The translations under genes were made by a program, and so were the position numbers. The notes under the pieces are model-generated. The model did no database searches. It was not told where the DNA came from and saw nothing but the letters and a program-made list of their open reading frames with translations. DNA of 64,000 nucleotides from the NCBI RefSeq assembly GCF_025397915.1, contig NZ_JALIDZ010000003.1, forward strand, positions 1 to 64,000. The letters run 5' to 3'. Every line of letters begins with the position of its first letter. The first letter of the stretch is position 1. Below, one piece after another: positions 1-15,840 of this stretch. The stretch comes from Microbaculum marinisediminis (GTDB lineage Bacteria; Pseudomonadota; Alphaproteobacteria; Rhizobiales; Tepidamorphaceae).

Positions 1-2
1 CG

Positions 3-656
3 GTTCGCGTCGACGCGACCGTAGCCGATGCGGCCCAGCTTATGTTGGACCACCGTATCAGTGGGTTACCGGTGATCGACGAGCAAGGAAGTCTTGTCGG
101 CATGATCACGGAGCGTGATCTTCTGCGGCGAGTTGAGGTCGAGACCAACCGCGAGCGACCTCATTGGCTCGAGCTCTTGCTCGGCGCGGGAGAGCTGGCG
201 GAGGAATATGTCCGAACGCACACCAAGCGAATTGAAGACGTGATGACCCGGGACGTGGTGACTGTTTCGAGTGACACGCTTCTGAGCGAGGTCGTATCAT
301 TGATGGAGCGGCGCGACATCAAACGAATTCCGGTTGTTCGGGATGGCAAGGTAATCGGCATCGTCAGCCGCGCCAATATTCTGCGCGCCCTGGCCCGTCG
401 CATCGACGATAAGCCCCCGACCGCCGGAGACGACCTCACGGTCCGGCGGAGTGTTTTGGAGGAGCTTGAAAAGCACGGTTGGATACCGGGTGGCGGCCTA
501 GAGATCGTAGCACGGGATGGAGTTGTCGAACTGCGCGGGACGGTCGGTGACGAGCGCGTACGCCAAGCCATTCGTGTCGCCGCCGAGAGCCTACCAGGCG
601 TCAAGCAAGTGGAGGACCGGCTGCACGTCGCAGGGACGCCACCGGGTTGGATCTGA
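3..656 (+). CDS. CBS-CBS-BON domain protein, 5' partial
   Basis: The reading frame is open from the first bases of the window, and the residues before the first ATG (VRVDATVADAAQLMLDH) continue a CBS repeat, so the true start lies upstream. Two CBS repeats are visible: the first around SGLPVIDEQGSLVGMITERD, the second around MTRDVVTVSSD through RIPVVRDGKVIGIVSR. A BON domain ends the protein (GGLEIVARDGVVELRGTVGDE to the ...GVKQVEDRLHV end). CBS pairs usually bind adenosyl nucleotides and BON domains often bind membranes or lipids, so an energy-sensing role is inferred rather than shown. It is followed after 38 bases by a sugar kinase and then by a universal stress protein, which fits a stress or low-oxygen gene set. 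Confidence 0.9.
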   Translation, partial: VRVDATVADAAQLMLDHRISGLPVIDEQGSLVGMITERDLLRRVEVETNRERPHWLELLLGAGELAEEYVRTHTKRIEDVMTRDVVTVSSDTLLSEVVSLMERRDIKRIPVVRDGKVIGIVSRANILRALARRIDDKPPTAGDDLTVRRSVLEELEKHGWIPGGGLEIVARDGVVELRGTVGDERVRQAIRVAAESLPGVKQVEDRLHVAGTPPGWI

Positions 657-694
657 AACGCTACCCGGTCGGCAGCCGAGGAGCGGAGGTTGCG

Positions 695-1660
695 GTGGCG
701 GGGATTCTGACGATCACCATGAGTCCGACGATCGATATTTCGGCGTCGACACGGAATGTAGTCCCCATTCACAAACTGAGCTGCAGTGGGGTACGCCGTG
801 ATCCTGGCGGTGGTGGGATCAACGTGGCAAGGGTCGTACGGCGCTTCGGAATGGAATGCCGCGCCCTCTATCCCACGGGTGGCTATACTGGAGATTTTCT
901 TCGCGCGCTCATGGACAAGGAAGGCGTTGAAAGCCTTCACGTGACGATTGCTGCCGACACTCGCGAGAGCTTCACATTGTTCGAGGAGTCAAGCGAGCAA
1001 GAGTATCGGTTCGTCCTGCCCGGCCCGGAGTTGCGAGAAGAGGAGTGGCAATGTTGTCTCGACCGGTTGGCAGCGCTTCCGCACCGTCCGGCCTACCTTG
1101 TGGCAAGTGGTAGCCTGCCACCTGGCGTGCCGGATGACTTTTATGCGCGGGTTGCTCGGATCGCGGAATTGCTCGGCGCGCGGTTAGTCGTTGACAGCTC
1201 GGGAGCGGCATTGAAGGCGGCGTTGGACGCGGGCATATATCTCGTCAAGCCCAACCTTCGTGAGTTGCGGGAGCTCACTGGAGAATCTCTCGAGCTGCAA
1301 TCGGAATGGGAGGATGCGGCAACGGCGCTGATCAGTGCCGGCAAATCCGAAATCGTCGCGCTAACGTTGGGTGAGGACGGCGCATTTCTCGTCAGCCCGA
1401 TGGGATGTCTGCGCGCGACAGGACTTCAAGTTGATATTCACAGCGCGGTCGGGGCCGGCGACAGCTTTCTCGCCGCAATGGTGTGGCAGTTGTCGCTTGG
1501 CCGAAGCCTCGAATGCGCGTTCCGATACGGCGTGGCTGCCGGGACAGCCGCCCTTGGTACACCGGGCACGGAGTTGTGTCGCATCCAGGACGTCGAGCGG
1601 CTGTACGGCGAAGTTCGCGTTGAGCCTGTGGCGTGTACGGGGCGGCGAAATAGTTTGTAA
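695..1660 (+). CDS. pfkB: PfkB-family sugar kinase (6-phosphofructokinase 2 / 1-phosphofructokinase type)
   Basis: This is a cytoplasmic ribokinase-fold kinase that probably phosphorylates fructose 6-phosphate or a related sugar phosphate. It has the N-terminal pattern ILTITMSPTIDIS, the glycine-rich substrate motif GGGGINVARVVRRFG, the KPNLRELRELTG segment, and the ATP/catalytic signature AVGAGDSFLAAM, whose Asp is the expected catalytic base. I chose the GTG at 695 because GGAGG at 685-689 sits five bases before it and the family pattern begins directly after it. A TTG at 647 would add 16 unrelated residues and overlap the previous gene. At about 321 residues it is close to family length. 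Substrate cannot be told from sequence alone. It probably shares a transcript with the CBS-BON gene. Confidence 0.87.
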   Translation: MAGILTITMSPTIDISASTRNVVPIHKLSCSGVRRDPGGGGINVARVVRRFGMECRALYPTGGYTGDFLRALMDKEGVESLHVTIAADTRESFTLFEESSEQEYRFVLPGPELREEEWQCCLDRLAALPHRPAYLVASGSLPPGVPDDFYARVARIAELLGARLVVDSSGAALKAALDAGIYLVKPNLRELRELTGESLELQSEWEDAATALISAGKSEIVALTLGEDGAFLVSPMGCLRATGLQVDIHSAVGAGDSFLAAMVWQLSLGRSLECAFRYGVAAGTAALGTPGTELCRIQDVERLYGEVRVEPVACTGRRNSL

Positions 1661-1747
1661 ATCTGATTGATACCCATGGCCTTGCGCGACCATGTTCACG
1701 CGACTCGTGCATAAGGCGCGGCGAAAGCGCATGGCGGCGGAATGGAT

Positions 1748-1761
1748 TTAATCCTGATCAA
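1748..1761 (+). promoter_or_regulatory. FNR/FixK-like palindrome
   Basis: TTAAT-CCTG-ATCAA matches the FNR/FixK consensus TTGAT-N4-ATCAA at nine of ten defined positions. It lies in the 306-base gap between the sugar kinase and the universal stress protein, about 205 bases before the latter's start. No other feature was recognised in this gap. Low-oxygen control of the stress protein and glucan synthase is an inference from this site plus gene content. Confidence 0.45.
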
Positions 1762-1966
1762 TGACAATTTCGCCGTAATTGAGGTATTGTTTTAAAAGTA
1801 GCAATCGGCGTTAAAAGCGAAAAGGCCCGAAGACCGACGCTCGCGGCGGCGCATCTAGAGTCGGTGACTCCTCAAAGCTGTTAGCCAAGCTATTTCGTTC
1901 CTGACTGCATCATATGACTCTGGCGCCTGCCCTTGCCGTGCGGATATGCACAATGGGAGGCAAGTT

Positions 1967-3004
1967 ATGCATGAATCTGCCGTGGCAACAGACTGCGGCT
2001 CGCGTGAGCGAGCTACCCCGTCAAACTCGTTGTCGAGCACGGCCTTTCGTCGTGTTGTGGCGTGTGTGGATACGTCAGAGCTGTCGCGCAAGGTGATCCC
2101 TCATGCCGTTGTACTAGCCAATGCGGTACGAGCTCCGCTTACCGTACTTCACGTCCTGGAAATCGAACCGACGGCCGGAATACCACCGGACCCCGTAGAG
2201 TGGGACGTCCGCCGCCACAGAGCCCACGACCACGCCGTGCGACTTGTTAGGTCGCACGGTGGCGACGTTCCAGAGATCGACGTCCGCATCATTGAGGGCC
2301 GCCCGGCCGAGCAGATCTGCCTATGGTCTCGCAGCCATGAGGTGGGCGTGACGGTAATAGGGACCCGCAGCGACTCGGGGACGCCGGCGTGGCAACTCGG
2401 CGACACGGCGCGCAAACTCTTGGACCAGGCTTCCGGGATGCTGCTTCTTGTACCCGCGACAGTCGCGGATGTGCCGATAGTGCATTATCGGCGGCTGTTG
2501 GTGCCGCTCGACGGGTCGTGCCAGGCGGAGAGCACACTTCCACTCGCGATGCGAATCGCAGAGGCCGAAGACGCAGAGTTGCTGCTCGTTCACGTGGTTC
2601 CCGTGCCGGAGCTGACAGAGGTCGGTCCGCTCGAGGCAGCAGATATCAGACTGCGGCAAGACGTAATCAGCCGAAATGAGCAGGTCGCCCGCCAGTATCT
2701 CAACCGCATTCGCGCCCTCGTCGCGGAACGCGGCATCGGGGCAAGAAATGTAATACTTTCCGACAACGATGTCCGCAGCCAACTCACCCGGCTCATTGTC
2801 GAGGAAGCAGTGGACCTTGTCGTCTTGTCGGCGCATGGTCGCAGCGGTCGCGCCGACGTCTCGTGCGGGAGCGTTGCTTCCTATTTGGTAACGCATGCAC
2901 AGGCACCGCTGCTGCTCAAGCTTAACGGCACTCTAGCGTCGGCCCGACGTATGATTCCTGGAAGTGGCCGGAACGGGCGGTTTCTCAGCCGCGCCGCGCT
3001 GTGA
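1967..3004 (+). CDS. tandem universal stress protein (two UspA domains)
   Basis: Two consecutive UspA domains are visible. The first begins FRRVVACVDTSELSRKVIPHA and ends near GMLLLVPA. The second begins YRRLLVPLDGSCQAESTLPLA and ends VTHAQAPLLLK. The second domain carries HGRSGRADVSCGSV, which resembles the G-x2-G-x9-G-(S/T) nucleotide-binding loop; the first domain has a looser version (GTRSDSGTPAWQLGDTA). I chose ATG 1967 over ATG 1946 because GGGAGG at 1955-1960 lies six bases before it. The stop codon overlaps the GTG start of the glucan synthase (GTGA), which suggests translational coupling. Such proteins respond to starvation, low oxygen or membrane stress. Confidence 0.9.
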   Translation: MHESAVATDCGSRERATPSNSLSSTAFRRVVACVDTSELSRKVIPHAVVLANAVRAPLTVLHVLEIEPTAGIPPDPVEWDVRRHRAHDHAVRLVRSHGGDVPEIDVRIIEGRPAEQICLWSRSHEVGVTVIGTRSDSGTPAWQLGDTARKLLDQASGMLLLVPATVADVPIVHYRRLLVPLDGSCQAESTLPLAMRIAEAEDAELLLVHVVPVPELTEVGPLEAADIRLRQDVISRNEQVARQYLNRIRALVAERGIGARNVILSDNDVRSQLTRLIVEEAVDLVVLSAHGRSGRADVSCGSVASYLVTHAQAPLLLKLNGTLASARRMIPGSGRNGRFLSRAAL

Positions 3005-6000
3005 ACGACTGGGAAGAGGAAATCCCAATTGATCCATTGGCGGCCGCAGCGCATGAAATTGGCGCTCGCCATGCGATCTCGAAACTGAAGCCAGATCGCA
3101 TTGCAGCGTTGTCGCGGATCGACCAGATGTCGGGATGGCTGACGCGCGCGCGCGCGGCCGCCGCCCACCCCCCGCCGGAGGCCACCAAGGCAGCCGAGTG
3201 GCTACTCGACAACGACTACCAGATTCAGCGCGCTATCGTGCAGATCGAGCATGATCTGCCGCCCCGGTTCTACGAGCGGCTCGCGCGTCTGGAGGGGGGC
3301 ACGGACGACGGTCTGCCGCGTATCTATGCAACCGCTCACGAATTCCTCCGCGCCTCACATCTTCAGGTTTCGCTCAGTGCCGCAGTCCGATTTGTGCAGG
3401 CCTATCAGGAGAGCGCCTCGCTCACCATCGCGGAGCTGTGGGCGTTCCCGACGATGCTTCGACTGGCCTGCCTCGAATTCATGGCTTGTGGTTGTCAGCG
3501 ACTCTTTCCGGGGCTTGATCCTCCCTTCGCACCAACACCCCATGCAGCGTCATGTCCGGAGTTCGAGGACACTGAGTGCGTCGCGCGCGCGCTTGCAAAT
3601 CTTGGCGTAATCGCCGCCATTCCGTGGAAGGACTTTTTCGATCGGACCAGCCTCGTCGAAGCTGTCCTCGCGAGCGATCCGGCAGGAATCTATTCGCGTA
3701 TGGCGTTCGAGACGCGTGATGCATACCGCAAGGCGGTGGAGGAGATTGCATCAGCGGCAAAGCGATCTGAGACGGAAGTCGCTGATTGTGTGATCGGCGG
3801 GGCGGGCACGGCCGGCGCCGCGCCGCCGCGCGACCATGTCGGATATTGGCTGGTCGGAGACGGTCGCAGAGACCTAGAGCGGCTGGTCGAGTTCCACGCA
3901 TCATGGAAAGCAGCCTGTGTCCGGGAACTTGCGCGCCAAACCGGGCCGCTTTACGCTGCGGCCATCGCCACTGCTTCTCTCGCTGCGCTGCTCGTGCCGG
4001 CGATGTATCTGGCCGCGGCCGGGGCGGGTCCGGGCGCCTGGTTCATCGGCGTTGGTATTGTGCTGCTGCCGGCGTCCGTACTCGGCATCACGGCGGTGCA
4101 TTGGATTGTTACTCTGCTCGTGCCACCCCGAGTCCTGCCCAAGCTCGACTTCCAGGCACGCATTCCGGCCGATTGCAACACGGCGGTAGTCGTTCCGGTG
4201 ATCATCCGCGCCGCCACCGAGGTGCCGCGCCTGATCCAGCGCCTGGAGCGACATCGTTTGGCCAACCCGGACCCGTCTCTGCGCTTCATAATTTTGAGCG
4301 ATCATGCCGACGCGCCTGCCGAGCACATGCCGGGAGACGACGAAATAGAGGGGGCGCTCCTGGATGGCATTCGTCAACTCAACAGCCGCTATGGAGGATC
4401 AACCAGGCAACCGTTTCATCTGCTGCATCGCCCGCGTCGCTACAACCCTTCCGAAGATTGCTGGATGGGATGGGAGCGCAAGCGGGGCAAGCTGGAGGAG
4501 TTCAACCTCCTCCTCCTCGGCGGTGACGGTCGCGGGTTCTCACTGCATGAGGGCGATCGGAACGCACTCAACCGAATCCGTTTCGTCGTTACGGTCGATG
4601 CCGACACTATCCTTTCTCCTGGGTCGGTCAACCGGCTCGTGGGAACAATGGCTCACCCATTGAACACGGCACAGTTCGACGAGCGTTCTGGCCGGGTAAG
4701 TGCCGGGTACACGGTTATCCAGCCGCGCGTGGAGATTTCTCCGGAGAGCGGCAACCGGTCACTGTTCGCCCGCCTCTATGCCGGCAACACGGCGATCGAT
4801 ATCTATTCGCGGGCTGTGTCAGATGTGTACCAGGACCTGTTCGGCTCGGGCATCTTTGTGGGCAAGGGCATCTACGAGGTCGGGCCGTTCCAGCGCAGCT
4901 TCGACGGGCGGATTCCCGAAAACGCCCTGGTCAGCCACGATCTCTTCGAGGGCATTAACGGCCGGGCGGCGCTCGCAAGCGATATCGTCCTCTATGAGGA
5001 TTTTCCGACGAGCTATGTCGAATATGCTCGGCGCTGGCACCGATGGGTCCGCGGCGATTGGCAGCTGTTGCCTTGGCTCGGCATACGTGTGCCGGGCCCC
5101 GGCGGGGAGCGGCTCGGGAACCGGCATTCGATCCTCGACCGCTGGAAGATCGTGGACAATCTGAGGCGCAGCCTCGTACCGCCCGCGCTTGTGACTTTGG
5201 CTGCTGCGGGATGGCTGGCGCTGCCCGGGAGTCCCTGGGTGTGGACGGCGTTCACTGTGGCCGCCCCTGGCGCTTATCTGTTCACTGACCTGGTGACGGG
5301 CCTCGCCCGTGGGCGCCGGCGGGGCGCAGCGCGCAGGATGCTCCACCAACTCCTCGATCACTCAGGACGCTGGCTGCTTGCCATCGTATTCCTGGCTCAG
5401 GATGCTGCTGTTGCCGTCGACGCCATCGCCAGGACGCTCTGGCGCCTCCTGGTCTCCCGACGGCATCTCCTCGAATGGGTATCGACGGCGCACACGGCGG
5501 CAGCCAACGATGGTCGCAATTCACTGACGGCGCGATGGTTCCAGATGTGGCAGGCTCCGACCTTGTCCGTGACCTTGGGGGGCGCTGTCGCCCTGGCGCA
5601 CCCGTCGGCTCTGCTACCTGCGGCCTGCCTCCTCCTCCCTTGGTTCGTTTCGCCCGAGATCGCTGCCTGGTTCAGTAGGCCCCGTCTCCCACGCAAAGAG
5701 GAGCTCGGCGCGAGCGACCTCACATATCTGCGGCGGTTGGCAAGGCGTACTTGGCTCTATTTCGAGACCTTCGTGGGTCCGGGTGACAATTGGTTGCCAC
5801 CCGACAATGTACAGGAAGAGCCGCACGCAGCGATCGCCCATCGCACGTCGCCAACCAATATTGGCATGATGTTCCTTTCCTCGCTTGCCGCTTGGGACCT
5901 TGGTTATGTGAGTTCGACGGATTTTGCTGCGCGCGTCCACAACGCACTTGATTCCCTCGATCGACTCGAGCGCCACCGTGGCCATTTCCTCAACTGGTAC

Positions 6001-9000
6001 GATACGCAACGCCTCGAGCCGCTTGAGCCTCACTATGTCTCGACGGTCGACAGTGGCAATCTCGCGGTCTGCCTCCTGGCGATGAAGGAGGGTTGCCGAG
6101 AGGCATTGTCGGCTCCGGCCATGCGCCATGAGCAATGGGACGGTCTCGCCGACACACTCGACCTGCTAGTGGAGGCCGTTAAGCGGATTCCGGACACGGA
6201 AACTCATGAATTGCTGCAGGTGCGCGTCGCCGCGATCTCGGCCCATATCGACAGTGCTCGACGCGATGTTTCGGCGACATGGCCGATTTTGGCCGAGCTG
6301 CGCCAGCAGGCGTTCACCGACCTCGAGTCCATCGTCGGACGCGCCATCGCGCTGCCGGGACCACCTCCGGAGGGCACCCTGCGCGACATCCAGATTTGGC
6401 TCGAGCGGGCTCGCCATCATCTTGTCCGCATGCAGCAGGATCTCGAGTTGCTCGCACCCTGGTTACCGCTGCTTGAGGCGCCACCTCCCGACTGTAAACG
6501 ACTTGCGCGTGAGATCGGCGAAAAGGTGAACACCTCAGCGCCGATGGGGAAGATCGTCCAGCGCTGTGCCACTGCCCGCGAACTGGTGGCGGCCGTCGCG
6601 GGATCGGGACCCGACACCGCGACTACGCAATGGCTGATCGAACTTGACGCCGCGCTTGAGCAAGGCGCTCGCTCCCAAGCCGAACTGGCGGATGAACTGC
6701 TCAACAGCGCGAGACGGCTGGAGACGCTTGCTTTCGCCATGGACTTCAGGATGCTGTTTGATGACGAAACTCGCCTATTCCACATCGGCTACAACGTCAG
6801 CTCCGATCGTATCGATACCTCTCACTATGATCTACTGGCCAGCGAGGCTCGCCTGGCGAGCTTCTTTGCGATTGCAAAGGGCGACGTCCCGTTCGAGCAC
6901 TGGTTTTTCCTAGGGCGACCAATCACTCGCACGTCGGATGGTCTTACGCTCGTCTCGTGGAACGGGTCGATGTTTGAGTACCTCATGCCGGCCCTTTTGC
7001 TGCGGAGTGAGCCGGACACGCTGATAGCCGAGAGTGAACGGACCGCCGTCGATGCCCAGCGCCGTTTCGCAGAGGAACGCGGGGTCCCTTGGGGAACATC
7101 GGAATCGGCATTTGCCTCGCGGGATTCCAGCCATCACTACCGCTATCGGGGTTTCGGTGTGCCGGAGCTTGGCCTGCGTCGGGGCCTGTCGCTCGATATC
7201 GTAGTGGCACCCTACGCCACCGCCCTGGCGCTTACCGCTCATACCAAAGCGGCCGTCGACAATCTTCGCGAGCTGGATCGCCTGGGACTTACCGGCAGCT
7301 ACGGCCTGTTCGAGGCGGCCGATTTCACGCCGGAGCGTATCCCGGCGGGAACACGCTTCTCCCCCGTGCGGGCGTACATGGCCCACCATCAAGGCATGAT
7401 GCTTTCCGCCCTGGATAATGTGCTCCGCGGTGACATCCTCGTGCACCGGTTCCACCGGGACCCGCGCGTGCGTGCCGTCGAACTGCTGCTCCAGGAGCGC
7501 GTGCCCCGGGAATTGCCGCCCGAGATCCGGGCACTTGAAGAGCGCGACGCGCCGCTTATGCGCCGTTCGGCTATTCCCGCGCCGCATGCCTGGATACCTG
7601 CTCCCGACGCGACCTTTCCGCAGATTCATACCCTCGGCAACGGTCGACTGGCGAGCTGGATATCGGAGGCCGGTGGTGGTGGCCTGAGCTGGCACGGGCA
7701 CGCGCTGACGCGTTTCCTGCCCGACCCGACACGCGACGCTTGCGGCCTGTGGGTCTATGTCCGCGACGAGACCGATGGCGCGATCTGGTCGATCGGCCGC
7801 CAGCCTACGGGGATCACAGCGGATGAATACCATGTTGTCTTCCATCCGCATATGGCGGAGCTGCAACGCCGTGATCATGGTATCGGTCAGAGGATGGAGG
7901 TAGGTGTCGTCCCTGGCGACGACCTGGAGATTCGTCGGATCAGCGTCGTCAATGAGAGTGATCGCCGGCGCTCCCTGCGCATTACAAGCTTCGGCGAAGT
8001 GGTTCTGGCACCGCCGCTCGAAGACGAGCGCCATCCCGCATTCAGCAAGCTCTTCGTGGGCAGCGAATACCTGTCCGAGTTGGACGGACTACTCTTCACG
8101 CGACGCTCACGTAACCCGGGCGAGGCACCGCCTGTGTTGTTGCATCGAGTGGTTGCCGATGACGCCGGCGTCGAGGTCACCGGCTTTGAAACCGACCGGC
8201 GCCGTTTTCTCGGCCGCAAGGGCAGCGCGCACGAGCCGCGCGCCGTGCGGGAGGGGCTTTCCGGAACGACGGGCTGGACGCTCGATTCCGTCATGGCGAT
8301 CGAGGTGCGGATTGTACTGGAGCCGCAGGATCGACGACAGTTCGCTTTCCTAACGATTGTCGCCGGCTCGCGGGAATCGGTACTCGCTATTGCCGAGCGC
8401 TACGCAACGCTCGCCTCGCTCGACTGGGCGCTCGCCGACGCCGCCTCTGACGTTGCCCGCGAAGCGCAAGAACTCCGCATCGAGCCAGCACGCCTGCCTG
8501 AGCTGCAATCGCTCGCCTCGCTCCTGCTCTACCGGCACCCGGCATTGCGTGGCCGGCCGGATGCAGTTGCCGAGAATAGGCTCGGCCAGCCGCGCCTGTG
8601 GGGACTCGGCATATCCGGCGACCTTCCAGTCCTTGCCCTTCGTGTCGCCGATCCAAAGGAGACGGACCTTCTACGTGCTCTCATCGCCGGCCACGAGTTG
8701 TGGCGGAGGCGGGGCATCCACGTCGACCTCGTGATATTGCGCGGCGGCGCTTCCGGCTATGTCGAGCCGTTACGGGAAAGCCTGCTGTCGCTCCTGCAGG
8801 AGGCAGGCAGTCAGGAACTACTGGGGCATAGAGGCGGAATCCACCTCGTCTTGGGCGACCAGATCGGGGATGAGGACCGATGTCTGATCGAGGCGACTGC
8901 TTGCGTCATCCTCGACACGTCGCAGGGCACGATCGAACACCAGCTGACCTCTGCTTCGGTGCCGCACTCGCTGCCACCGCGCTTCGAACCGACCCGGAGG

Positions 9001-11469
9001 GTCCCGCTTGTCGAGGATTCACCCAAGCTGCCGCGTCGTCTCGACCTGGCCTTCGACAACGGATTCGGCGGCTTTACCGCAGACGGCAGGGAGTATGTAA
9101 TCCATCTCGAGCCGGGAGAGACGACGCCGGCGCCGTGGTCCAACGTGCTCGCGAACGAACGGTTCGGTACGATCATCACCGAATCCGGCGGTGGATTCAC
9201 ATGGGCTCTCAATAGCGGCGAGAATCGGCTGACGCCGTGGACCAACGATCCTGTAGCTGATCCACCGGTAGAGGCACTCTATCTCAGGGATGAGGAGACG
9301 GCCGAGATCTGGACACCTACACCTGGTCCAGCCGGGGACGGGGCGGCCTGTGAAATCCGACATGGCGCCGGCTATACCGTCTGGCAGCACGTGAGCCACC
9401 GGCTCGAGCAGAAACTCCTTGTCTTCGTGCCGCCGGACGATCCGGTGAAGATTGCACGCCTCACGCTACACAATCTGGAATCCCGCCCACGGCGGATTAC
9501 CGCCACGTACTATGCCGAATGGTTGCTGGGAGCGCTCACGAGCGCCCGGCCGTTCGTAGTCTGCGAATATGATGCAGCACGTCATGCCCTGCTGGCTCGC
9601 AATCCCTGGAATCCCGACTTCGCCGAGCGCGTTGCGTTTCTGACATCGAACCATCCACCTCACAGCCTCACAACGGACCGGCAGGATTTCCTCGGTCGCG
9701 AAGGAGCCATGGGCGCACCGGAAGGTCTCATGCGCTGGGACCTCGGCGGTCGCGTCGAAGCAGGTGCGGACGCCTGCGCCGCCTTCCAGGTGCATATAGA
9801 CATCGATGCGGGCGCCACGTCGGACATCGTATTCGTGCTCGGCCAGGGGGACAATCGGTCACATACCGATGAACTTGTGCGTCGCTGGCAGGATCTGGGT
9901 CATGTCGACCGCGCCTTCGACGCGTGTAACCATTTCTGGGACGAGCGGCTTGGCGCAGTCCACGTGGAAACGCCTGATTCCGCCTTCAATCTGATGGTGA
10001 ACCGCTGGTTCCTCTATCAAACCCTGGCATCGCGCCTGTTTGCGCGCGCCGGATTCTACCAGGCTGGAGGGGCCATAGGCTTCCGCGACCAGTTGCAAGA
10101 CGTCCTTGCCATACTCCACGCCGACCCGAAGAGGGCGCGGGCCCATATTCTCACAGTCGCTGCGCGGCAGTTCGAAGAAGGCGATGTTCTGCACTGGTGG
10201 CACCCGCCCTACAACCGAGGGGTTCGAACGCGCTGCTCCGACGACCTCTTGTGGTTGCCCTATGTGACGGGGTGTTATGTGGAGGCGACCGGCGATGAGT
10301 CGATCCTGCATGAAACGGTCCCGTTCTTGCGGGCGCCACCCCTCGCACCTGATGAGGAGGATCGTTATGCGCGCTTCGACACGATTTCCGAGCCGCGTCC
10401 GCTCTTCGAGCACTGCGAGCGTGCGCTCGAGCGCGGCCTCACCCCGGGATCGCACGGCCTTCCGCTGATCGGCGCAGGTGACTGGAATGACGGGATGAAC
10501 CGGGTCGGCGCCGCGGGCCGGGGCGAAAGCGTCTGGCTGGCTTGGTTTGCCATTGCCACCATCAGGCAGTTTACCGCCCTGGCTCAGAGGATGAAACGCA
10601 ATGACCTCGCAGAGCACTGGCTGACCCGGATCAGTGAGCTCCAAAAGGCGGTCGCGAAATCCGCGTGGGACGGGAAGTGGTACTTGAGAGCCTTCGACGA
10701 TGACGGACACCCATTGGGTTCGGCCGATTCCGATGAATGCCGAATTGACTCAGTTGCTCAATCCTGGGCGGTGCTGTCGGCCGATCGTGTTTCTGAACGG
10801 GCTCGCACTGCCGTGGATAGCGCCGATCACGAATTGCTGCGCAAGGACGAAAGGCTTATCCGGCTGCTCTGGCCACCCTTCGATGCGACCCCGCACGATC
10901 CGGGATACATCAAGGCCTATCCCCCGGGTATCCGCGAAAACGGTGGTCAATATTCGCACGCCGCCGCCTGGCTAGGACACGCCTTCGCTCGCCTCGGTGA
11001 TGGCGAGCGGGCAATGCAGGTTTTCAATATCCTCAATCCGATCCGTCATGCAATCACCCGCTCCGACGTGGAGCGTTATCGCGTGGAGCCCTACGCTTTG
11101 GCCGCCGATGTGAGCAGTGTTGCTCCCAACATCGGATGCGGGGGCTGGACTTGGTACACCGGAGCAGCAGGCTGGACTTGGCGGCTCGCCGTTGAGGCGA
11201 CACTGGGCCTGCGGCTCCAGGAGGGCCGGCTTATGATCGATCCGTGCCTGCCGAAGGGCTGGGACTTTTTCAAGGTCGAGGTCAAAGGTCCCGCCGGCAA
11301 TCTGGCTGTCCGGTTCGAGGATCCCGATCAGATTGGCAGGGGGCTCGTTGAAATATTTGTTGACGGAGAGGTACATCCGAACGGACCAGTGGCGTTTCCG
11401 ACGGATGGCTCGACTCGTCAGGTCACGGCACGCCTTTGCCGGAAGCCTGCTCAGACTGCGACGTCGTGA
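3001..11469 (+). CDS. ndvB: cyclic beta-1,2-glucan synthase (NdvB/ChvB type)
   Basis: At 2,822 residues this matches the family's very large size. NdvB is an inner-membrane enzyme that primes itself, extends a beta-1,2-glucan from UDP-glucose, trims it with a phosphorylase domain and releases it as a ring. Order: a cytoplasmic N-terminal part; hydrophobic segments around residues 317-375; a GT84 glycosyltransferase with VTVDADT near 530 and a YARRWHRWVRGDW segment near 675; more membrane segments around 735-850; a glycoamylase-like domain (FHIGYNVSSDRIDTSHYDLL, near 1,260); then two sugar-phosphorylase-like sandwich regions and an (alpha/alpha)6 GH94-type domain with GAGDWNDGM near 2,490. The GTG start overlaps the preceding stop, and no strong ribosome-binding site is visible, so translation is probably coupled. 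Osmoadaptation or host interaction are the usual roles. Confidence 0.93.
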   Translation: MNDWEEEIPIDPLAAAAHEIGARHAISKLKPDRIAALSRIDQMSGWLTRARAAAAHPPPEATKAAEWLLDNDYQIQRAIVQIEHDLPPRFYERLARLEGGTDDGLPRIYATAHEFLRASHLQVSLSAAVRFVQAYQESASLTIAELWAFPTMLRLACLEFMACGCQRLFPGLDPPFAPTPHAASCPEFEDTECVARALANLGVIAAIPWKDFFDRTSLVEAVLASDPAGIYSRMAFETRDAYRKAVEEIASAAKRSETEVADCVIGGAGTAGAAPPRDHVGYWLVGDGRRDLERLVEFHASWKAACVRELARQTGPLYAAAIATASLAALLVPAMYLAAAGAGPGAWFIGVGIVLLPASVLGITAVHWIVTLLVPPRVLPKLDFQARIPADCNTAVVVPVIIRAATEVPRLIQRLERHRLANPDPSLRFIILSDHADAPAEHMPGDDEIEGALLDGIRQLNSRYGGSTRQPFHLLHRPRRYNPSEDCWMGWERKRGKLEEFNLLLLGGDGRGFSLHEGDRNALNRIRFVVTVDADTILSPGSVNRLVGTMAHPLNTAQFDERSGRVSAGYTVIQPRVEISPESGNRSLFARLYAGNTAIDIYSRAVSDVYQDLFGSGIFVGKGIYEVGPFQRSFDGRIPENALVSHDLFEGINGRAALASDIVLYEDFPTSYVEYARRWHRWVRGDWQLLPWLGIRVPGPGGERLGNRHSILDRWKIVDNLRRSLVPPALVTLAAAGWLALPGSPWVWTAFTVAAPGAYLFTDLVTGLARGRRRGAARRMLHQLLDHSGRWLLAIVFLAQDAAVAVDAIARTLWRLLVSRRHLLEWVSTAHTAAANDGRNSLTARWFQMWQAPTLSVTLGGAVALAHPSALLPAACLLLPWFVSPEIAAWFSRPRLPRKEELGASDLTYLRRLARRTWLYFETFVGPGDNWLPPDNVQEEPHAAIAHRTSPTNIGMMFLSSLAAWDLGYVSSTDFAARVHNALDSLDRLERHRGHFLNWYDTQRLEPLEPHYVSTVDSGNLAVCLLAMKEGCREALSAPAMRHEQWDGLADTLDLLVEAVKRIPDTETHELLQVRVAAISAHIDSARRDVSATWPILAELRQQAFTDLESIVGRAIALPGPPPEGTLRDIQIWLERARHHLVRMQQDLELLAPWLPLLEAPPPDCKRLAREIGEKVNTSAPMGKIVQRCATARELVAAVAGSGPDTATTQWLIELDAALEQGARSQAELADELLNSARRLETLAFAMDFRMLFDDETRLFHIGYNVSSDRIDTSHYDLLASEARLASFFAIAKGDVPFEHWFFLGRPITRTSDGLTLVSWNGSMFEYLMPALLLRSEPDTLIAESERTAVDAQRRFAEERGVPWGTSESAFASRDSSHHYRYRGFGVPELGLRRGLSLDIVVAPYATALALTAHTKAAVDNLRELDRLGLTGSYGLFEAADFTPERIPAGTRFSPVRAYMAHHQGMMLSALDNVLRGDILVHRFHRDPRVRAVELLLQERVPRELPPEIRALEERDAPLMRRSAIPAPHAWIPAPDATFPQIHTLGNGRLASWISEAGGGGLSWHGHALTRFLPDPTRDACGLWVYVRDETDGAIWSIGRQPTGITADEYHVVFHPHMAELQRRDHGIGQRMEVGVVPGDDLEIRRISVVNESDRRRSLRITSFGEVVLAPPLEDERHPAFSKLFVGSEYLSELDGLLFTRRSRNPGEAPPVLLHRVVADDAGVEVTGFETDRRRFLGRKGSAHEPRAVREGLSGTTGWTLDSVMAIEVRIVLEPQDRRQFAFLTIVAGSRESVLAIAERYATLASLDWALADAASDVAREAQELRIEPARLPELQSLASLLLYRHPALRGRPDAVAENRLGQPRLWGLGISGDLPVLALRVADPKETDLLRALIAGHELWRRRGIHVDLVILRGGASGYVEPLRESLLSLLQEAGSQELLGHRGGIHLVLGDQIGDEDRCLIEATACVILDTSQGTIEHQLTSASVPHSLPPRFEPTRRVPLVEDSPKLPRRLDLAFDNGFGGFTADGREYVIHLEPGETTPAPWSNVLANERFGTIITESGGGFTWALNSGENRLTPWTNDPVADPPVEALYLRDEETAEIWTPTPGPAGDGAACEIRHGAGYTVWQHVSHRLEQKLLVFVPPDDPVKIARLTLHNLESRPRRITATYYAEWLLGALTSARPFVVCEYDAARHALLARNPWNPDFAERVAFLTSNHPPHSLTTDRQDFLGREGAMGAPEGLMRWDLGGRVEAGADACAAFQVHIDIDAGATSDIVFVLGQGDNRSHTDELVRRWQDLGHVDRAFDACNHFWDERLGAVHVETPDSAFNLMVNRWFLYQTLASRLFARAGFYQAGGAIGFRDQLQDVLAILHADPKRARAHILTVAARQFEEGDVLHWWHPPYNRGVRTRCSDDLLWLPYVTGCYVEATGDESILHETVPFLRAPPLAPDEEDRYARFDTISEPRPLFEHCERALERGLTPGSHGLPLIGAGDWNDGMNRVGAAGRGESVWLAWFAIATIRQFTALAQRMKRNDLAEHWLTRISELQKAVAKSAWDGKWYLRAFDDDGHPLGSADSDECRIDSVAQSWAVLSADRVSERARTAVDSADHELLRKDERLIRLLWPPFDATPHDPGYIKAYPPGIRENGGQYSHAAAWLGHAFARLGDGERAMQVFNILNPIRHAITRSDVERYRVEPYALAADVSSVAPNIGCGGWTWYTGAAGWTWRLAVEATLGLRLQEGRLMIDPCLPKGWDFFKVEVKGPAGNLAVRFEDPDQIGRGLVEIFVDGEVHPNGPVAFPTDGSTRQVTARLCRKPAQTATS

Positions 11470-11583
11470 CGGCGGGAACTCTAAACATGAACGCGTCGTT
11501 CGGTGCCGAGCGTAAGAAATCGCGTGGGGGCTGTACGCGTCAGCGCCACGTTAAGCGGATTGAGTGCTTTCATTCATGTCAAC

Positions 11584-11626
11584 GCCGGAGCAAAAATGCG
11601 CCGGTTGGCCGGAGTAAAAATGTGCC
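11584..11626. repeat. IS21 terminal repeats, two 19-base units
   Basis: Units at 11584-11602 and 11608-11626 read GCCGGAG(C/T)AAAAATG(C/T)GCC and differ at only two positions. Repeated transposase-binding units just inside the ends are typical of IS21-family elements. Confidence 0.75.
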
Positions 11627-11632
11627 AGATGA

Positions 11633-11672
11633 CGTCATGCGAAGGGGCCCAATCGGGCCCCTTCGCATGACG
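11633..11672. terminator. perfect 18-base-arm hairpin downstream of istB remnant
   Basis: Arms at 11633-11650 and 11655-11672 are perfectly complementary around a four-base AATC loop. It lies between the istB stop and the IS end, so it probably terminates IS transcription or blocks read-through into the element. No long T-run follows on either strand, so terminator function is inferred. Confidence 0.5.
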
Positions 11673-11692
11673 GCGCGCCGCTGCGTTGTGGA

Positions 11693-11845
11693 TCAGCCTG
11701 CTTCGGGATCCCGTTTTGGCTCGGCAGCCTTGCGGGATTGCGCGAGACGATAACTTTCGCCGTTCATTTCGAGGATGTGGACGTGGTGGGTGAGCCGGTC
11801 GAGGAGCGCGCCAGTGAGCCGCTCGGAGCCGAAGACGCTGGTCCA
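11693..11845 (-). pseudogene. istB: istB (IS21 ATPase) C-terminal fragment
   Basis: Read on the minus strand, the segment encodes about 50 residues ending in Gly-stop. They include FGSERLTGALLDRLTHH and ILEMNGESYRL, the well-conserved C-terminus of the IS21 helper ATPase IstB. The Walker motifs and the rest of the protein are absent. The fragment breaks at the IS3-like terminus. Confidence 0.8.
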
Positions 11846-11846
11846 G

Positions 11847-12170
11847 TGAGCTACTCCCCGATCGTTGGACAGATTTCGGCGTAAATTAAGCTACTCTCTG
11901 CCCCTGCTGGTCGGCTTCGATCTTGGTGGAGTAGACCACGGCGGGCGGCTGTCCGCCATGGGCGGCATGAGGCCGCTGGTGATTGTAGAAGGCGATCCAC
12001 CGACCGACGCCAGCCTTGGCCTGCGTCCCGGTCTCCCGAGCGTGCAGATAGACGCACGCGTACTTCAAGGATCGCCACAGGCGCTCGATGAAGATGTTGT
12101 CGATGCAGCGCCCCTTGCCGTCCATCGAGATCCGGGTGCCGAGCCGTCTCAGCCAGTCGATCCAAGCGAA
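11847..12170 (-). mobile_element. IS3-family element remnant inserted in IS21
   Basis: A terminus starting TGAGCTACTCCCCGATCG, with GTTGGACAG shortly after, begins at 11847 directly against the broken istB. The C-terminal part of an IS3 orfB transposase follows on the minus strand. The other side of the element is lost near 12170, so only one end remains. Confidence 0.7.
11886..12170 (-). pseudogene. IS3-family transposase OrfB, C-terminal fragment
   Basis: The minus-strand translation contains ISMDGKGRCIDNIFIERLW, then RSLKYACVYLH and GRWIAFYNHQRPHAAHGG. These are hallmarks of the rve integrase domain C-terminus of IS3-group transposases, including the last catalytic Glu in IERLW. The DDE residues further upstream and orfA are missing. 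The open frame runs to 12200, but the resemblance fades beyond about 12170. Confidence 0.8.
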
Positions 12171-12211
12171 AACTGCGCAAAATGTGTAAAAACTGTGCAA
12201 TACTAATCCGG

Positions 12212-12257
12212 AACAAAATCAAGGGGTTAAGCTTGCGCTTAACCCCTTGATTTTGTT
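12212..12257. repeat. perfect 21-base inverted repeat beside tRNA scar
   Basis: Arms 12212-12232 and 12237-12257 are fully complementary around a four-base TTGC loop. The right arm continues directly into the tRNA remnant and resembles the flank often found downstream of tRNA genes (CAAAATCAAGGGGTTA). The left arm looks like an inverted copy of that flank. It could act as a bidirectional terminator or be a recombination scar. Confidence 0.6.
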
Positions 12258-12307
12258 GGTTACAGGGTAGGAACTTGAACCTACGACCTTCAGGTTATTA
12301 GCCTGAC
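12257..12307 (-). pseudogene. decayed 3' half of initiator tRNA-Met
   Basis: On the minus strand the segment has an anticodon stem and loop (TCAGG-CTAATAA-CCTGA), a variable region AGGTC, a T arm (GTAGG-TTCAAGTT-CCTAC) and a terminal ACCA. It resembles the 3' half of bacterial tRNA-fMet, but the CAT anticodon has become AAT and the T loop has one extra base. No D arm or 5' acceptor strand is present. It is best read as an old attachment-site remnant, not a working tRNA. Confidence 0.6.
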
Positions 12308-12492
12308 GGTCGCGCCGGAATGATACTGCACTTCCTTCGCATTGTTCTGCTGGACTTCCTGCGCACCGGAAGCATGCATAGGGACAACGGCGGGACCCTA
12401 CGGCGCCGTCGGGAAGCCGCCCGGATCAAGTTCCGGGCTTTGGGTGGTGGAAGCGCTGGTTCGGGATCAGCGCGCTCGACAGGAGCCACCCA

Positions 12493-13188
12493 ATGTCCAC
12501 GAAGACGAAACCCAAACCCCTCTCCGACATGCAACTCGTCATCCTGACTAACGCCGCCGGTCGCAACGACGGCAGCGTCTTGCCCGTGCCCGCCTCTCTG
12601 AAGACAAAAGGCGCCGCGCTGAGCCGGGTGCTCGGGACCCTGCTGAAGTCTGGGCTGATCTCGGAGCGGCGCGCCAAACGGGACGACGAGGTCTGGCGAA
12701 CGGACGACACCACCCGACTGACGCTCGCGATCACGCAAGCAGGCCTCTCGGCAATCGGCCTGGAAGAGCGCGAGACCGACGACACATCTTCCGATACGGC
12801 CGTTCTTGCGAATGGCGAGACCAGCTCGGTGAAGAAGCGGATGCGGTCCAGCAAACCGGCTGTCTCCGACCATCACCGCGGCAAGTCCAAGGAGCCTGGC
12901 AAATCCAGCGAACGTGACCGGTCGCGCCGGGAACAGGATTGTTCCTCGAGCAAATCACAACGGTCGACCAATGCCGCGCAATCGGAACGGCCTGCGAACA
13001 AGACCGCGACGATCACGGCCCTCCTGCAATCGTCGGATGGAGCAACCGTCAGTGACCTGATGGAAGCCACGGGATGGCAGGCCCACTCTGTCCGCGGCTT
13101 CCTGTCCGGTACGCTCAAGAAGAAGCTTGGCTACACTGTCACCAGCGAACGCCAGGACGGTGTACGGCGCTACCGGATCCCGGCCTAG
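12493..13188 (+). CDS. DUF3489 domain protein
   Basis: This 231-residue protein has two winged-helix-like parts joined by a low-complexity, Ser/Lys/Arg-rich linker (residues about 100-165). The N-terminal part (LSDMQLVILTNAAGRNDGSV) and the C-terminal part (KTATITALLQSSDGATVSDL followed by MEATGWQAHSVRGFLSG) match the DUF3489 pattern found in alphaproteobacterial mobile DNA. An AGGAG site precedes the ATG. It is the first gene of a cassette with a DUF2924 protein and a serine recombinase, so DNA binding or control of recombination direction is a reasonable guess. No function is established. Confidence 0.8.
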   Translation: MSTKTKPKPLSDMQLVILTNAAGRNDGSVLPVPASLKTKGAALSRVLGTLLKSGLISERRAKRDDEVWRTDDTTRLTLAITQAGLSAIGLEERETDDTSSDTAVLANGETSSVKKRMRSSKPAVSDHHRGKSKEPGKSSERDRSRREQDCSSSKSQRSTNAAQSERPANKTATITALLQSSDGATVSDLMEATGWQAHSVRGFLSGTLKKKLGYTVTSERQDGVRRYRIPA

Positions 13189-13202
13189 GGCGCGGTGTCC
13201 CG

Positions 13203-13688
13203 ATGGGACCAGACAGACGAAACAACGCAGGCATCGAGATCGGCGACCTCGCCGCTCTCGACCTGCAGTCCCTTCGCGAGCACTGGCGCACCTTGTACGA
13301 GTGTGAACCGCCTGTCCGGATGAGCCGGGAGCTCTTGATCCAGTCCATCGCGTACAGGCTACAGGAACAGAGGTACGGCGGCCTGTCCCGCCAGATGAGA
13401 CTGAAGCTGGCCGAAGCTGGGAAGCTCGGGACAGGCGGCAAGAACCGTGACAAGTCGAAGGCTTCCGTTCGCCGGAAGATCAAACCGGGCACACGCTTCC
13501 TGCGCGAGTGGAAGGGCAGGACCCATGAGGTCACCGCCACAGCCGACGGCCGCTTTGTCTACAGGGGCACATCCTACCGATCGCTGAGCGCGATCGCCCG
13601 GGAGATCACCGGCACACGCTGGTCGGGGCCGGCATTCTTTGGACTCTTCGCGAAAACCAAAGCCGATGGCCAGACGCGGCAAAGATAG
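13203..13688 (+). CDS. DUF2924 domain protein
   Basis: This is a 161-residue basic protein. It contains LAALDLQSLREHWRTLY, then MSRELLIQSIAYRLQEQRYGG, and ends with KIKPGTRFLREWKGRTHEV, RFVYRGTSYRSLSAIAREITG and TRWSGPAFFGL. These are the conserved blocks of DUF2924. ATG 13203 lies 14 bases after the DUF3489 stop. The gene's 3' end overlaps the start of the recombinase by 23 bases, so the three genes are probably one transcript. DUF2924 proteins are repeatedly found next to large serine recombinases; their biochemical role is unknown. Confidence 0.82.
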   Translation: MGPDRRNNAGIEIGDLAALDLQSLREHWRTLYECEPPVRMSRELLIQSIAYRLQEQRYGGLSRQMRLKLAEAGKLGTGGKNRDKSKASVRRKIKPGTRFLREWKGRTHEVTATADGRFVYRGTSYRSLSAIAREITGTRWSGPAFFGLFAKTKADGQTRQR

Positions 13689-15456
13689 CGATCGCCGTTT
13701 CGGCGACGATCCAATGGCGCGGCGCAGGCTTCGCTGCGCCGTCTACACCCGCAAGTCCAGTGATGAAGGTCTGGAGCAGAGCTTCAACTCTCTGCATGCC
13801 CAGCGCGATGCCTGCGAAGCCTATGTCGCAAGCCAGAAGCACGAAGGCTGGATGCTGCTGCCTCAGGCCTATGACGATGGAGCCTACTCGGGCGGCTCAA
13901 TGAACCGACCTGCCCTACAGCGGCTCCTGGACGACATCCGCTCGGGGTTGATCGACATCGTCGTGGTCTACAAGGTCGATCGCCTGACCCGATCGCTCGC
14001 CGACTTCGCCAAGCTGACCGAGCTGTTCGATGCAAATGGCGCGAGCTTCGTGTCGGTCACCCAAGCCTTCAACACTTCGACCTCTATGGGCCGGCTCACC
14101 CTCAATGTGCTGCTGTCCTTCGCCCAGTTCGAGCGGGAGGTCGCCGGCGAGCGCATCCGCGACAAGATCGCGTTGTCGAAGCGGCGTGGCATGTGGATGG
14201 GCGGTCTGCCGCCGCTCGGCTATGACGGCATCGACAAGAAACTGGTCGTCAACGAACCCGAAGCCGACACAGTCCGGCAAATCTTCCACCGCTATCTGAA
14301 GCTTGGCTCCATCGCAGCCCTCAAGCAGCATCTCGATGCATCCGGCGTCGTCTCCAAGCGACGGCGCTTCAGCGACGGCCGGGAGGTCGGCGGTGTCTCG
14401 CTCAGCCGCGGTGCGCTCTACCAGATCCTGCGCAACCGTCTCTATCGTGGTGAGATCGCCTATCGGGGCGAAGTCCATCAGGGCAACCACGAAGCCATCG
14501 TCGACGAAGACCTGTGGTCGCAGGTGCAGGACTTGCTGATCGCCCAAAGCCAGCGCAAGCGCAGTGCGCCACAACATCCCGATGACAACGGCGCCGGCCA
14601 ACGATACCGGGAGCCGGCCCTTCTTGCCGGGCTCGTATTCGATGAACAGGGCAATCGGCTGACGCCGACCTACGCAACAAAGCGCGGGCGCCGGTATCGC
14701 TATTACGTCTCGGCGCCGCTCACGCGCGGTGAACGCAACGCCGATGGCATTCGGGTTCCAGCGCCCGACCTGGAAGCCCTCGTCGCAGAGACGCTCGAGC
14801 GGTACCTGTCTGATGGCTCCTGGGTCTGTGAGCACTTCGGCGCCGGTCTGGATGCCACGCAATTGGAGAGGTTGGTCGCTGCAGCTGGAAACCTCGCGAA
14901 CCGGATCGCTTCACCGGCATCTGAAACCGAAGGGGATGTCGCCAGCCGTTCAGACGAAGGCCTTCGATCTCTGATCGCGCGAGTGATGGTTGGCAAGCAA
15001 CGGCTGGCCCTCGAAGTCGATGAGAAGTGTGTTGTTGAAGCCCTGGAGGAGATCGATCGCGGGCTAGTTCAGGTCGACGTTCGAGAGGAGGCAATCCCAA
15101 TCGAGGTCGAAGCGCATACCCTTCGCTGCGGCAAGCAGACCCGTCTCGTCGTTGGCGATGTCGAGACAGAGCATCGCTCACCGGATCCCAAGCTGGTCAA
15201 ACTAGTTGCCGATGCGCATCGCTGGTTCGACGATCTCCGAACCGGCCGGCGGGCGACCATCGCGGAGATCGCTGCAAACGCAAATCAGCAGGTCTCGCAT
15301 GTGAGCCGGACCATAGGGCTGGCGTTCCTCGCGCCGGATATCGCCAAGATGATCCTGATGGGCAGCCAGCCCATAAGCCTCACGCCGGAGCGACTCAAGG
15401 CCAATCGCCCGCTTCCCCTCGAGTGGAACGAACAGCGCGTCATTCTTCTCCCCTAA
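13666..15456 (+). CDS. large serine recombinase (site-specific integrase)
   Basis: The N-terminal resolvase domain starts RCAVYTRKSSDEGLEQSFNS, with the nucleophilic Ser in YTRKSS, and continues with a helix ending SFAQFEREVAGERIRDKIA. A recombinase domain follows (GGLPPLGYDG to the ALYQILRNRLYRGEI region) and then a zinc-ribbon-like region. About 596 residues is typical for large serine integrases. ATG 13666 was chosen because it lies inside the DUF2924 end and leaves a short basic leader; a TTG at 13639 and an ATG at 13714 are alternatives. It probably mobilised this cassette. No matching attachment-site pair was identified. Confidence 0.88.
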   Translation: MARRGKDSDRRFGDDPMARRRLRCAVYTRKSSDEGLEQSFNSLHAQRDACEAYVASQKHEGWMLLPQAYDDGAYSGGSMNRPALQRLLDDIRSGLIDIVVVYKVDRLTRSLADFAKLTELFDANGASFVSVTQAFNTSTSMGRLTLNVLLSFAQFEREVAGERIRDKIALSKRRGMWMGGLPPLGYDGIDKKLVVNEPEADTVRQIFHRYLKLGSIAALKQHLDASGVVSKRRRFSDGREVGGVSLSRGALYQILRNRLYRGEIAYRGEVHQGNHEAIVDEDLWSQVQDLLIAQSQRKRSAPQHPDDNGAGQRYREPALLAGLVFDEQGNRLTPTYATKRGRRYRYYVSAPLTRGERNADGIRVPAPDLEALVAETLERYLSDGSWVCEHFGAGLDATQLERLVAAAGNLANRIASPASETEGDVASRSDEGLRSLIARVMVGKQRLALEVDEKCVVEALEEIDRGLVQVDVREEAIPIEVEAHTLRCGKQTRLVVGDVETEHRSPDPKLVKLVADAHRWFDDLRTGRRATIAEIAANANQQVSHVSRTIGLAFLAPDIAKMILMGSQPISLTPERLKANRPLPLEWNEQRVILLP

Positions 15457-15763
15457 TCTCCGTCTCGTCGGCAGCGCTGACCGATGCGAATCGCGCCGGC
15501 TAGGATGCATCCTATCGTCCTTTCTTCACTTTTTCGGACGGTTTGTTCGCATTCCGTCCGCACAGCTACCAATCAGGCATGGACTACAATCCGCAGCATG
15601 TCGCGGAAACAGTCCAACGGAGAACGAGGCGGACATTCGAGCTGAAATGGCGTCAAACAGCGCGGAGAGAGAGGCGCGACAGGGGTCTCTTGGTTGGTAA
15701 AGCGCTGAAACGTCGAGACAATTCAGCGTCTTCCAAAAGTGGCCCGCAGTCAGCCCGACTGAG
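15457..15763. other. gap between recombinase and tRNA-Arg
   Basis: I see no convincing gene here. The short open frame starting at 15543 runs through the tRNA and has no recognisable protein signature. This is the likely place for the right-hand attachment site of the recombinase cassette, but no repeat of the tRNA end or of the left boundary was found by eye. Confidence 0.5.
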
Positions 15764-15840
15764 TGGCGTCCCCGGCAGGATTCGAACCTGCGACCCTCAG
15801 ATTAGGAATCTGATGCTCTATCCTGCTGAGCTACGGGGAC
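15764..15840 (-). tRNA. tRNA-Arg(CCT)
   Basis: The minus strand folds as a full cloverleaf of 77 bases. It has an acceptor stem GTCCCCG/CGGGGAC, a D arm with GCTCAGCAGGATAGAGC, an anticodon arm TCAGA-TTCCTAA-TCTGA with anticodon CCT, a T arm GCAGG-TTCGAAT-CCTGC, discriminator G and an encoded CCA. Confidence 0.96.

Follow-up and report, generated by a model that had tools for sequence, protein, structure and literature searches.

Genes at the locus

The locus described here lies in a window (the whole stretch of DNA that was analysed, 64,000 nucleotides) from Microbaculum marinisediminis (RefSeq assembly GCF_025397915.1, contig NZ_JALIDZ010000003.1, positions 1 to 64,000 of the forward strand) and consists of three consecutive plus-strand genes, hereafter the trio. 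These encode a DUF3489 protein (12493-13188, 231 amino acids (aa); Pfam PF11994, 3.6e-25), a DUF2924 protein (13203-13688, 161 aa; PF11149, 3.9e-45) and a large serine recombinase (LSR; 13666-15456, 596 aa), the last identified by its Resolvase (2.7e-36) and Recombinase (PF07508, 3.1e-13) domains, by alignment and by its place in a tree. The first two genes are separated by 14 bases (13189-13202), the LSR begins at the ATG at 13666, overlapping the DUF2924 gene by 23 bases (13666-13688), and its stop codon ends at 15456. The coordinates, order, strand, gap and overlap given in an initial annotation, made from the sequence alone, were all confirmed using open reading frames (ORFs) and Pfam. Just downstream, a minus-strand tRNA-Arg(CCT) gene (15764-15840; ARAGORN) is convergent with the LSR, its 3' end turned towards the recombinase, and is the predicted attachment target. 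Very probably, the trio serves a genomic island that targets tRNA genes as its integration module and marks the end of that island nearest the tRNA, as set out below.

The YTRKS, KVDRLTR and QFERE blocks of the Resolvase domain, with the catalytic Ser and conserved Arg/Asp, are present in the window LSR, and the corresponding motifs (YTR[KV]S, K[VI]DRLTR and QFERE) are intact in it and in the 18 relatives aligned with it, so that the retention of conserved catalytic positions, on which the annotated role in recombination depended, holds. PF07508, a DNA-binding domain, follows the catalytic domain. The zinc beta-ribbon (PF13408) scored 16.2 bits in the window LSR, under the cut-off of 25.3, and the corresponding region holds no Cys in 17 of the 19 aligned LSRs and one in each of the other two; the fold may remain without zinc. 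The host genome contains one such module, and partial, weak similarity to the LSR (38% and 26%) was found at two further places. A decayed second copy of the trio, in which a DUF3489-side piece is fused to a recombinase piece, was seen in the same genome (L069, G000:C13:125725-126177), with no tRNA gene in the 20 kb examined near it.

Recurrence of the trio

Related modules were collected in three sets. Named loci were fetched by LSR alignment alone, the alignment comprising 19 trio LSRs, and the best 80 of at least 584 confirmed loci were kept; both the make-up of that alignment and the choice of the best 80 bias this set towards close relatives. The 80 loci hold 85 recombinases, 78 of them with at least 700 bp upstream. 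The other sets were 150 related genomes and contigs from IMG/VR. In several counts a genome can contribute two or more modules, and three pairs of loci (L106/L154, L113/L163 and L136/L166) each represent one contig present in two sets, so the named and relative tallies were kept apart.

DUF2924 was encoded within 900 bp upstream of the LSR in 77 of the 78 named modules and DUF3489 in 55, a gene order that far exceeds chance. Of the 150 related genomes, 40 contain DUF2924, 42 DUF3489 and 39 both, and on IMG/VR contigs DUF2924 accompanied the LSR in 79/82 cases and DUF3489 in 31/82, the latter a possible undercount, since it was sought by tblastn using the window protein. The trio thus recurs as a unit across genomes, as the initial annotation had proposed, and its genes are not mostly found independently of one another. 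In 47 of 89 listed pairs, with gene starts assigned by a script, the DUF3489 and DUF2924 genes are -4 to +5 bases apart, a spacing like that of a translationally coupled operon. A second layout was found in nine genomes (G120, G105, G122, G021, G069, G006, G075, G073 and G110), where the DUF3489 gene lies 14-22 kb upstream of the DUF2924-LSR pair on the same strand; the corresponding LSR clade (20 rows, support of 100) retains the pair itself. Among the 5000 plasmid records listed, 2 have a single place with coverage of the LSR of 80% or more. One is Sphingobium pTomTYG65a, in which the neighbouring genes are annotated as hypothetical.

tRNA genes beside the recombinase

In the window, 307 bp separate the LSR stop from the 3' end of tRNA-Arg(CCT). 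This interval (15457-15763, plus strand) is the presumed right end of the element (P arm), the same layout being found in relatives, and it ends with GACTGAG immediately before TGG. Synteny resumes at the tRNA, at 15764 against G001 and G002 (same genus) and at 15761 against G006 and G007, and left of the tRNA the window and these four genomes share no DNA pairwise at E 1e-4; these unshared left flanks look as they would at an insertion hotspot. The window therefore has an intact tRNA at one end with an integrase adjoining, one of the features by which tRNA-integrated genomic islands are recognised.

The arrangement is general. A tRNA 3' end faces the LSR within 600 bp for 47 of the 73 named-locus recombinases with 600 bp or more of downstream sequence, and for 19 of 34 relatives with the trio. 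Two controls were used, the upstream side and the flank background. No tRNA gene was present within 2.2 kb upstream (0/59 testable named modules, 0/34 relatives), and no module had only a same-strand tRNA within 600 bp downstream (0/73 and 0/34). Flanks of 56 loci, totalling 470.4 kb, held 10 such tRNAs, or 0.015 per 700 bp, by which about 1 facing tRNA would be expected among the 73, versus the 47 observed. For tRNAs within 600 bp, the distance from the LSR has a median of 242 bp and a range of 163-476 bp (71 loci). When tRNAs within 1.3 kb were counted (77 loci and three IMG/VR contigs), the targets comprised 23 anticodons and 12 isotypes, one of these anticodons being found in IMG/VR only.

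The junctions are equally regular. All 77 listed junctions (L106 and L154 being one contig) open with TGG, the complement of the encoded CCA, and in 21 of them, the window included, GACTGNN stands right before TGG. The motif GACTGNNTGG is enriched downstream of the LSR in three sets (16/53, 3/25 and 8/60, versus 0.48, 0.14 and 0.56 expected). Beyond the P arm, 4 of the 79 named and 10 of the 62 IMG/VR recombinases have a longer part of the tRNA 3' end, 17-46 nt in length and 82 nt in L176.

How target choice relates to descent was examined in a tree with 156 recombinases, for 70 of which a target was labelled, built with FastTree only, a tool that warned of long branches. On this tree the target isotype switches at least 24 times, versus 40-46 times in 20 shuffles; as this is fewer than in any shuffle and still at least 24, related enzymes share targets and re-targeting is frequent.

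Islands with mapped ends

Both ends of the element were located in another genus by comparing an empty site (G119) with two occupied ones (G085 and G046) at tRNA-Gln(TTG). G119 has this tRNA gene and, among the genomes listed, showed no match to DUF2924, DUF3489 or the LSR. Its flanks are 92% identical to those of G085 on both sides (3.6 kb left, 3.4 kb right); against G046 the right flank is 84% identical and the left 77%, the latter over 253 bp only. Between the G119-matching flanks lie insertions of 30,318 bp (G085) and 35,529 bp (G046) with the trio at the tRNA side, and the matching G119 segments have 9 bp in common, which span the tRNA end. For both islands a second attachment (att) site and an empty site elsewhere were found. 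The sequence common to the left and right junctions (attL and attR) is TGGCTG in G046 and GGTGGCTG in G085, that is, 6-8 bp consisting of CCA and its neighbours at the CCA end of the tRNA. Mapping ends between strains with and without the trio, the check that had been suggested for finding the attachment core, thus places that core in relatives at the tRNA 3' CCA end. Tandem junctions likewise stop 6 nt into the tRNA (TGGTTG in L120, TGGTGG in L180).

Cargo was surveyed in part, by scanning 30 protein entries with Pfam and 10 with PADLOC, all from the islands or L120 and with ORFs called by a longest-ORF script. The cargo of the mapped islands includes catabolic and ABC-transport families, among others, and one G046 island protein matches the PADLOC MkoC model (7.4e-68). 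The smallest delimited unit, L120, is 5.2 kb long by its tandem junction and carries genes for a HigB-like toxin, a helix-turn-helix (HTH) protein and an insertion sequence (IS) transposase in addition to the trio.

These units bear on the proposal in the initial annotation that the three genes alone form a minimal mobile element with no cargo. The tight gene spacing agrees with it, as does L154 (G037 contig), where DUF2924 and LSR genes only, about 2.7 kb, lie between a decayed tRNA-Gln remnant (identified by eye) and an intact tRNA. Where both ends were mapped, however, the trio forms the tRNA-proximal end of islands of 30.3 and 35.5 kb with cargo, even the 5.2-kb unit carries HigB-like, HTH and IS genes, and no left end was recognised near the window DUF3489 gene. 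The interval annotated as cargo-free moreover leaves out the tRNA just to its right and the accessory-looking genes that lie just to its left. As a general rule the bare element was rejected, since relatives carry cargo, and for the window it is improbable.

L180 holds the other candidate for a bare element. At L180:6152-10947 a 2.3-kb tandem duplication was seen, at the joint of which the att sequence TGGTGG runs straight into the N-terminal portion of DUF2924; recombination at a pseudo-site inside that gene may have produced it. The 2.3-kb unit was rejected as a bare element, because its left edge falls inside DUF2924 and the copy therefore looks like a deletion product.

tRNA-Gln(TTG) was also seen to be a hotspot with tandem modules in L106/L154 (G037), G113, G079, G154 and G152. 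L154 contains decayed tRNA-Gln 3' remnants, and G113 and G079 have a 25.5-kb stretch in common at 97% identity.

Left ends were sought elsewhere with a motif of the mapped relatives (P' motif, TGG...GGCAGT). It gave 3 matches upstream of 77 modules versus 0.35 expected and was not enriched downstream of the LSR in three sets; with 3 of 77 it is no general boundary finder. L199 has a candidate left end 1 kb upstream.

Left side of the window

From 42 to 11469 on the plus strand, the window encodes probable cargo: a CBS-BON protein, a PfkB kinase and a Usp protein, all three assigned by Pfam, and a very large ORF (3001-11469, 2822 aa). The latter, which we take to be cyclic beta-glucan synthase-like, gave only a sub-threshold glycosyltransferase match to Pfam in the part scanned. 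The Usp protein had no match in six of seven relatives and only weak ones in G005 (best 35.9 bits). G+C content is about 0.62 left of tRNA-Arg versus about 0.69 at 16-19 kb, though it returns to 0.61-0.63 at 19-21 kb. The sequence suggests that the approximately 11.5 kb left of the trio would be the cargo of an accessory island. The left boundary was also sought by way of the left flanks of G001 and G002, each against six genomes, and none was recognised: the G002 flank matched its own contig only, and the G001 flank gave, among the matches listed, many short, repeated-family-like matches in all six.

Between these genes and the trio (11655-12257), an IS3-like transposase remnant, a long inverted repeat and a tRNA-Met remnant were seen in succession. 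The first is presumably IS3-like, by its motifs; Pfam gave no match for the two ORFs tried. The inverted repeat (12212-12257; a minus-strand self-match of 91% over 46 bp including the loop) is terminator-like and abuts the tRNA-Met remnant, and an Rfam match to BjrC68, below the cut-off, was recorded at 12213-12283. The tRNA-Met piece (12256-12312, minus strand) is a 3' remnant and not an intact gene (sub-threshold Rfam tRNA match, 21.1 of 29 bits), 89% identical over 53 bp to tRNA-Met-like places in G001 and G007 and 80% to the intact tRNA-Met of G000:C9. It is, to judge by its sequence, the scar of another tRNA integration or of a rearrangement.

Such a scar hints at other integrations near the window, and targeting of tRNA genes is classically the work of tyrosine integrases (PMC4383910, in the part of that paper available), which together would favour an island inserted by a tyrosine integrase with the serine trio as a passenger. 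This explanation is largely refuted and very improbable: Phage_integrase (PF00589) had no match in the G046 island, in the G085 island or in window positions 1-15,763, and a passenger would not be expected to keep a fixed orientation 163-476 bp from a tRNA at 71 loci.

That the trio is instead the integration module of a decayed prophage, and the island in origin viral, is unlikely, although phages do carry the gene pair: Wolbachia phage WO has DUF2924 and LSR genes (gp30-gp31) close to structural genes of P2-like type, and the pair is present in Acidithiobacillus phage AcaML1. Against this, no phage structural family was found in six proteins scanned left of the trio or in the proteins scanned from the mapped islands and L120, scans that covered parts of these regions, and only 9 of 50,697 phage records match the window DUF2924 protein (E 1e-5).

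The two small proteins

In the AlphaFold2 (AF2) model, the window DUF3489 protein has two confident blocks, an N-terminal winged-helix-like domain and the C-terminal DUF3489 winged-helix domain; Foldseek returned mostly MarR and winged-HTH proteins (best E 0.035, weak). DUF2924 was modelled (pLDDT 85.8) as a helical N-terminal half and a compact C-terminal RAMA-like domain. Pfam gave a sub-threshold RAMA match (1.1e-4) for it, and its three best Foldseek matches, weak ones (best E 0.05), were MPND structures, of which two include DNA. Sequence searches of the PDB returned nothing for DUF2924 and weak MecI/MarR matches only for DUF3489. DUF2924 and DUF3489 are plausible DNA-binding accessory proteins on the basis of these models, and the winged-helix and RAMA-like folds, weak as the structural matches are, agree with the DNA-binding helpers of the initial annotation.

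Which of the two might set the direction of recombination was considered separately. DUF2924 rather than DUF3489 could be the directionality factor, or both could be mere regulators outside recombination; we regard this as possible and somewhat doubtful. DUF2924 is nearly always with the LSR (77/78), and in nine genomes DUF3489 stands 14-22 kb off. On the other side, DUF3489 ORFs are frequently just 70-90 aa long, the usual size of excisionases.

Proposed mode of integration

We propose that the LSR would recombine attP of a circular element with an attB that lies at the CCA-bearing 3' end of a tRNA gene, tRNA-Arg(CCT) in the window, and that related modules would act likewise at many other tRNAs. 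The element would end flush against CCA, so that the tRNA would stay whole. DUF2924, as a near-obligate partner, may help the recombinase to bind or choose its site, and DUF3489, often directly upstream, may be a repressor or directionality factor. The comparisons demonstrate, at the level of sequence, the adjacency and orientation of the tRNA, the conserved partner gene, the precise empty and occupied sites (in another genus) and the catalytic residues; the trio LSR is presumably active in recombination.

Several observations weigh against this reading. Within the 15.7 kb to the contig start, the search for a copy of the tRNA-Arg 3' end left of the trio gave only an 11-bp match of chance level, and the P' motif of the mapped relatives is absent from the window, in which the contig starts at position 1. 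No intact tRNA lies within 600 bp of 26 of the 73 named and 15 of the 34 relative modules; some of these are pseudogenes, tandem copies or, in a few cases, modules with tRNA 3' fragments. The clade with the split DUF3489 layout is not tRNA-adjacent. Of the IMG/VR recombinases with at least 600 bp downstream, 3/51 have a facing tRNA by ARAGORN and one more a same-strand tRNA, and of the 62 with 300 bp downstream 5 have an intact and 10 a partial tRNA; this weak linkage is perhaps due to extrachromosomal or trimmed sequences that contain attP only. Neither mapped island proves present activity, since another LSR lies within that of G046 and the recombinase of G085 is interrupted by an internal stop.

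The tRNA link is, furthermore, no property of the DUF2924 modules alone. LSRs without DUF2924 were intended as a negative control (20 fetched, 5 without a match, 15 scored) and failed as one: in 8 of the 15 a tRNA 3' end overlaps the LSR stop, which means that the use of tRNA genes is wider than the DUF2924 clade. The 15 form one side of a branch with support of 100 in the FastTree tree, subject to its long-branch warning. At the eight loci (L351, L352, L354, L356, L359, L364, L365 and L367) the LSR frame was seen to extend 21-65 nt into the convergent tRNA 3' end, the C-terminal tail being antisense tRNA, as is reported for DsiB at ssrA in the part of that paper available (PMC3146451).

Beyond the window, we put forward more tentatively, and as rather less probable than not being so, a clade of serine integrases specialised on tRNA genes as a class. 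Its enzymes might recognise shared features (a crossover zone at CCA and the T-arm GGTTCGAATCC in the attB half-site) together with a variable part, and might be re-targeted between tRNAs of 12 or more isotypes and 23 or more anticodons; the RAMA-fold DUF2924 might be an obligatory second subunit for specificity or for sensing methylation, making these two-component integrases, and DUF3489 might be the switch.

Relation to known systems

Serine integrases at tRNA ends appear widespread and, by the titles of the fetched loci, mostly alphaproteobacterial. Islands at tRNA genes may consequently be misassigned or missed where insertion is of the serine type. The Islander paper, in the part available, states that tyrosine recombinases are the only ones known to target tDNAs and limits its island finder to tyrosine integrases on that ground (PMC4383910); a figure legend in a review places attB sites of serine recombinases within genes (PMC5704250), and the main text of a large LSR survey has no word starting with 'tRNA' (PMC10083194). 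In the full-text literature within scope, outside which lay most subscription journals and bioRxiv, no description of the clade (DUF2924, DUF3489, or serine integrase with tRNA) was found in the parts of papers available, and two exceptions to the tyrosine-only rule were: Paracoccus phage phiPam-6 at tRNA-Met and the Dehalococcoides ssrA islands. The clade would be a natural source of serine enzymes with which defined landing sites at tRNA 3' ends could be used without loss of a gene, and DUF2924 and DUF3489 gain a concrete, testable context as accessory or directionality proteins of serine recombination.

Two of the closest known systems are phages with the gene pair. In Wolbachia phage WO, the DUF2924 gene gp30 overlaps the start of the homologous LSR gene gp31 (33-34% identical, 96% of the query), and the annotated phage boundary follows right after the recombinase. 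Preceding gp30 is a gene with an ankyrin-like annotation and not DUF3489, and the targets, as given in the available part of the source, are a magnesium chelatase gene and intergenic sites, not tRNA (PMC9203015). In AcaML1 the DUF2924 gene is immediately upstream of an LSR that is 51% identical over residues 19-380.

A case alike in target is phiPam-6 (vB_PamS_Pami6), which by the accessible parts of its descriptions has a serine recombinase and is integrated at tRNA-Met (PMC3925955, PMC6536676); its 17-bp repeat includes CTACCA, which we read as consistent with a CCA end. It differs in being a single phage, according to its authors alone among the serine ones in having a predicted site, and is set beside the trio by description. 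The Dehalococcoides ssrA islands (DsiA/DsiB) similarly combine serine recombinases, tandem islands and repeats of the tmRNA gene 3' end; their enzymes, however, were likened to the Ccr recombinases of SCCmec, dsiB overlaps the att site and insertion is in the T-loop, as described in the part available (PMC3146451). In the accessible portions of these sources DUF2924 is not mentioned for phiPam-6, nor DUF2924 or DUF3489 for the Dehalococcoides islands. The tyrosine-integrase islands found by Islander (PMC4383910) resemble the present one in having an integrase beside an intact, restored tRNA, and differ in that their enzyme is unrelated.

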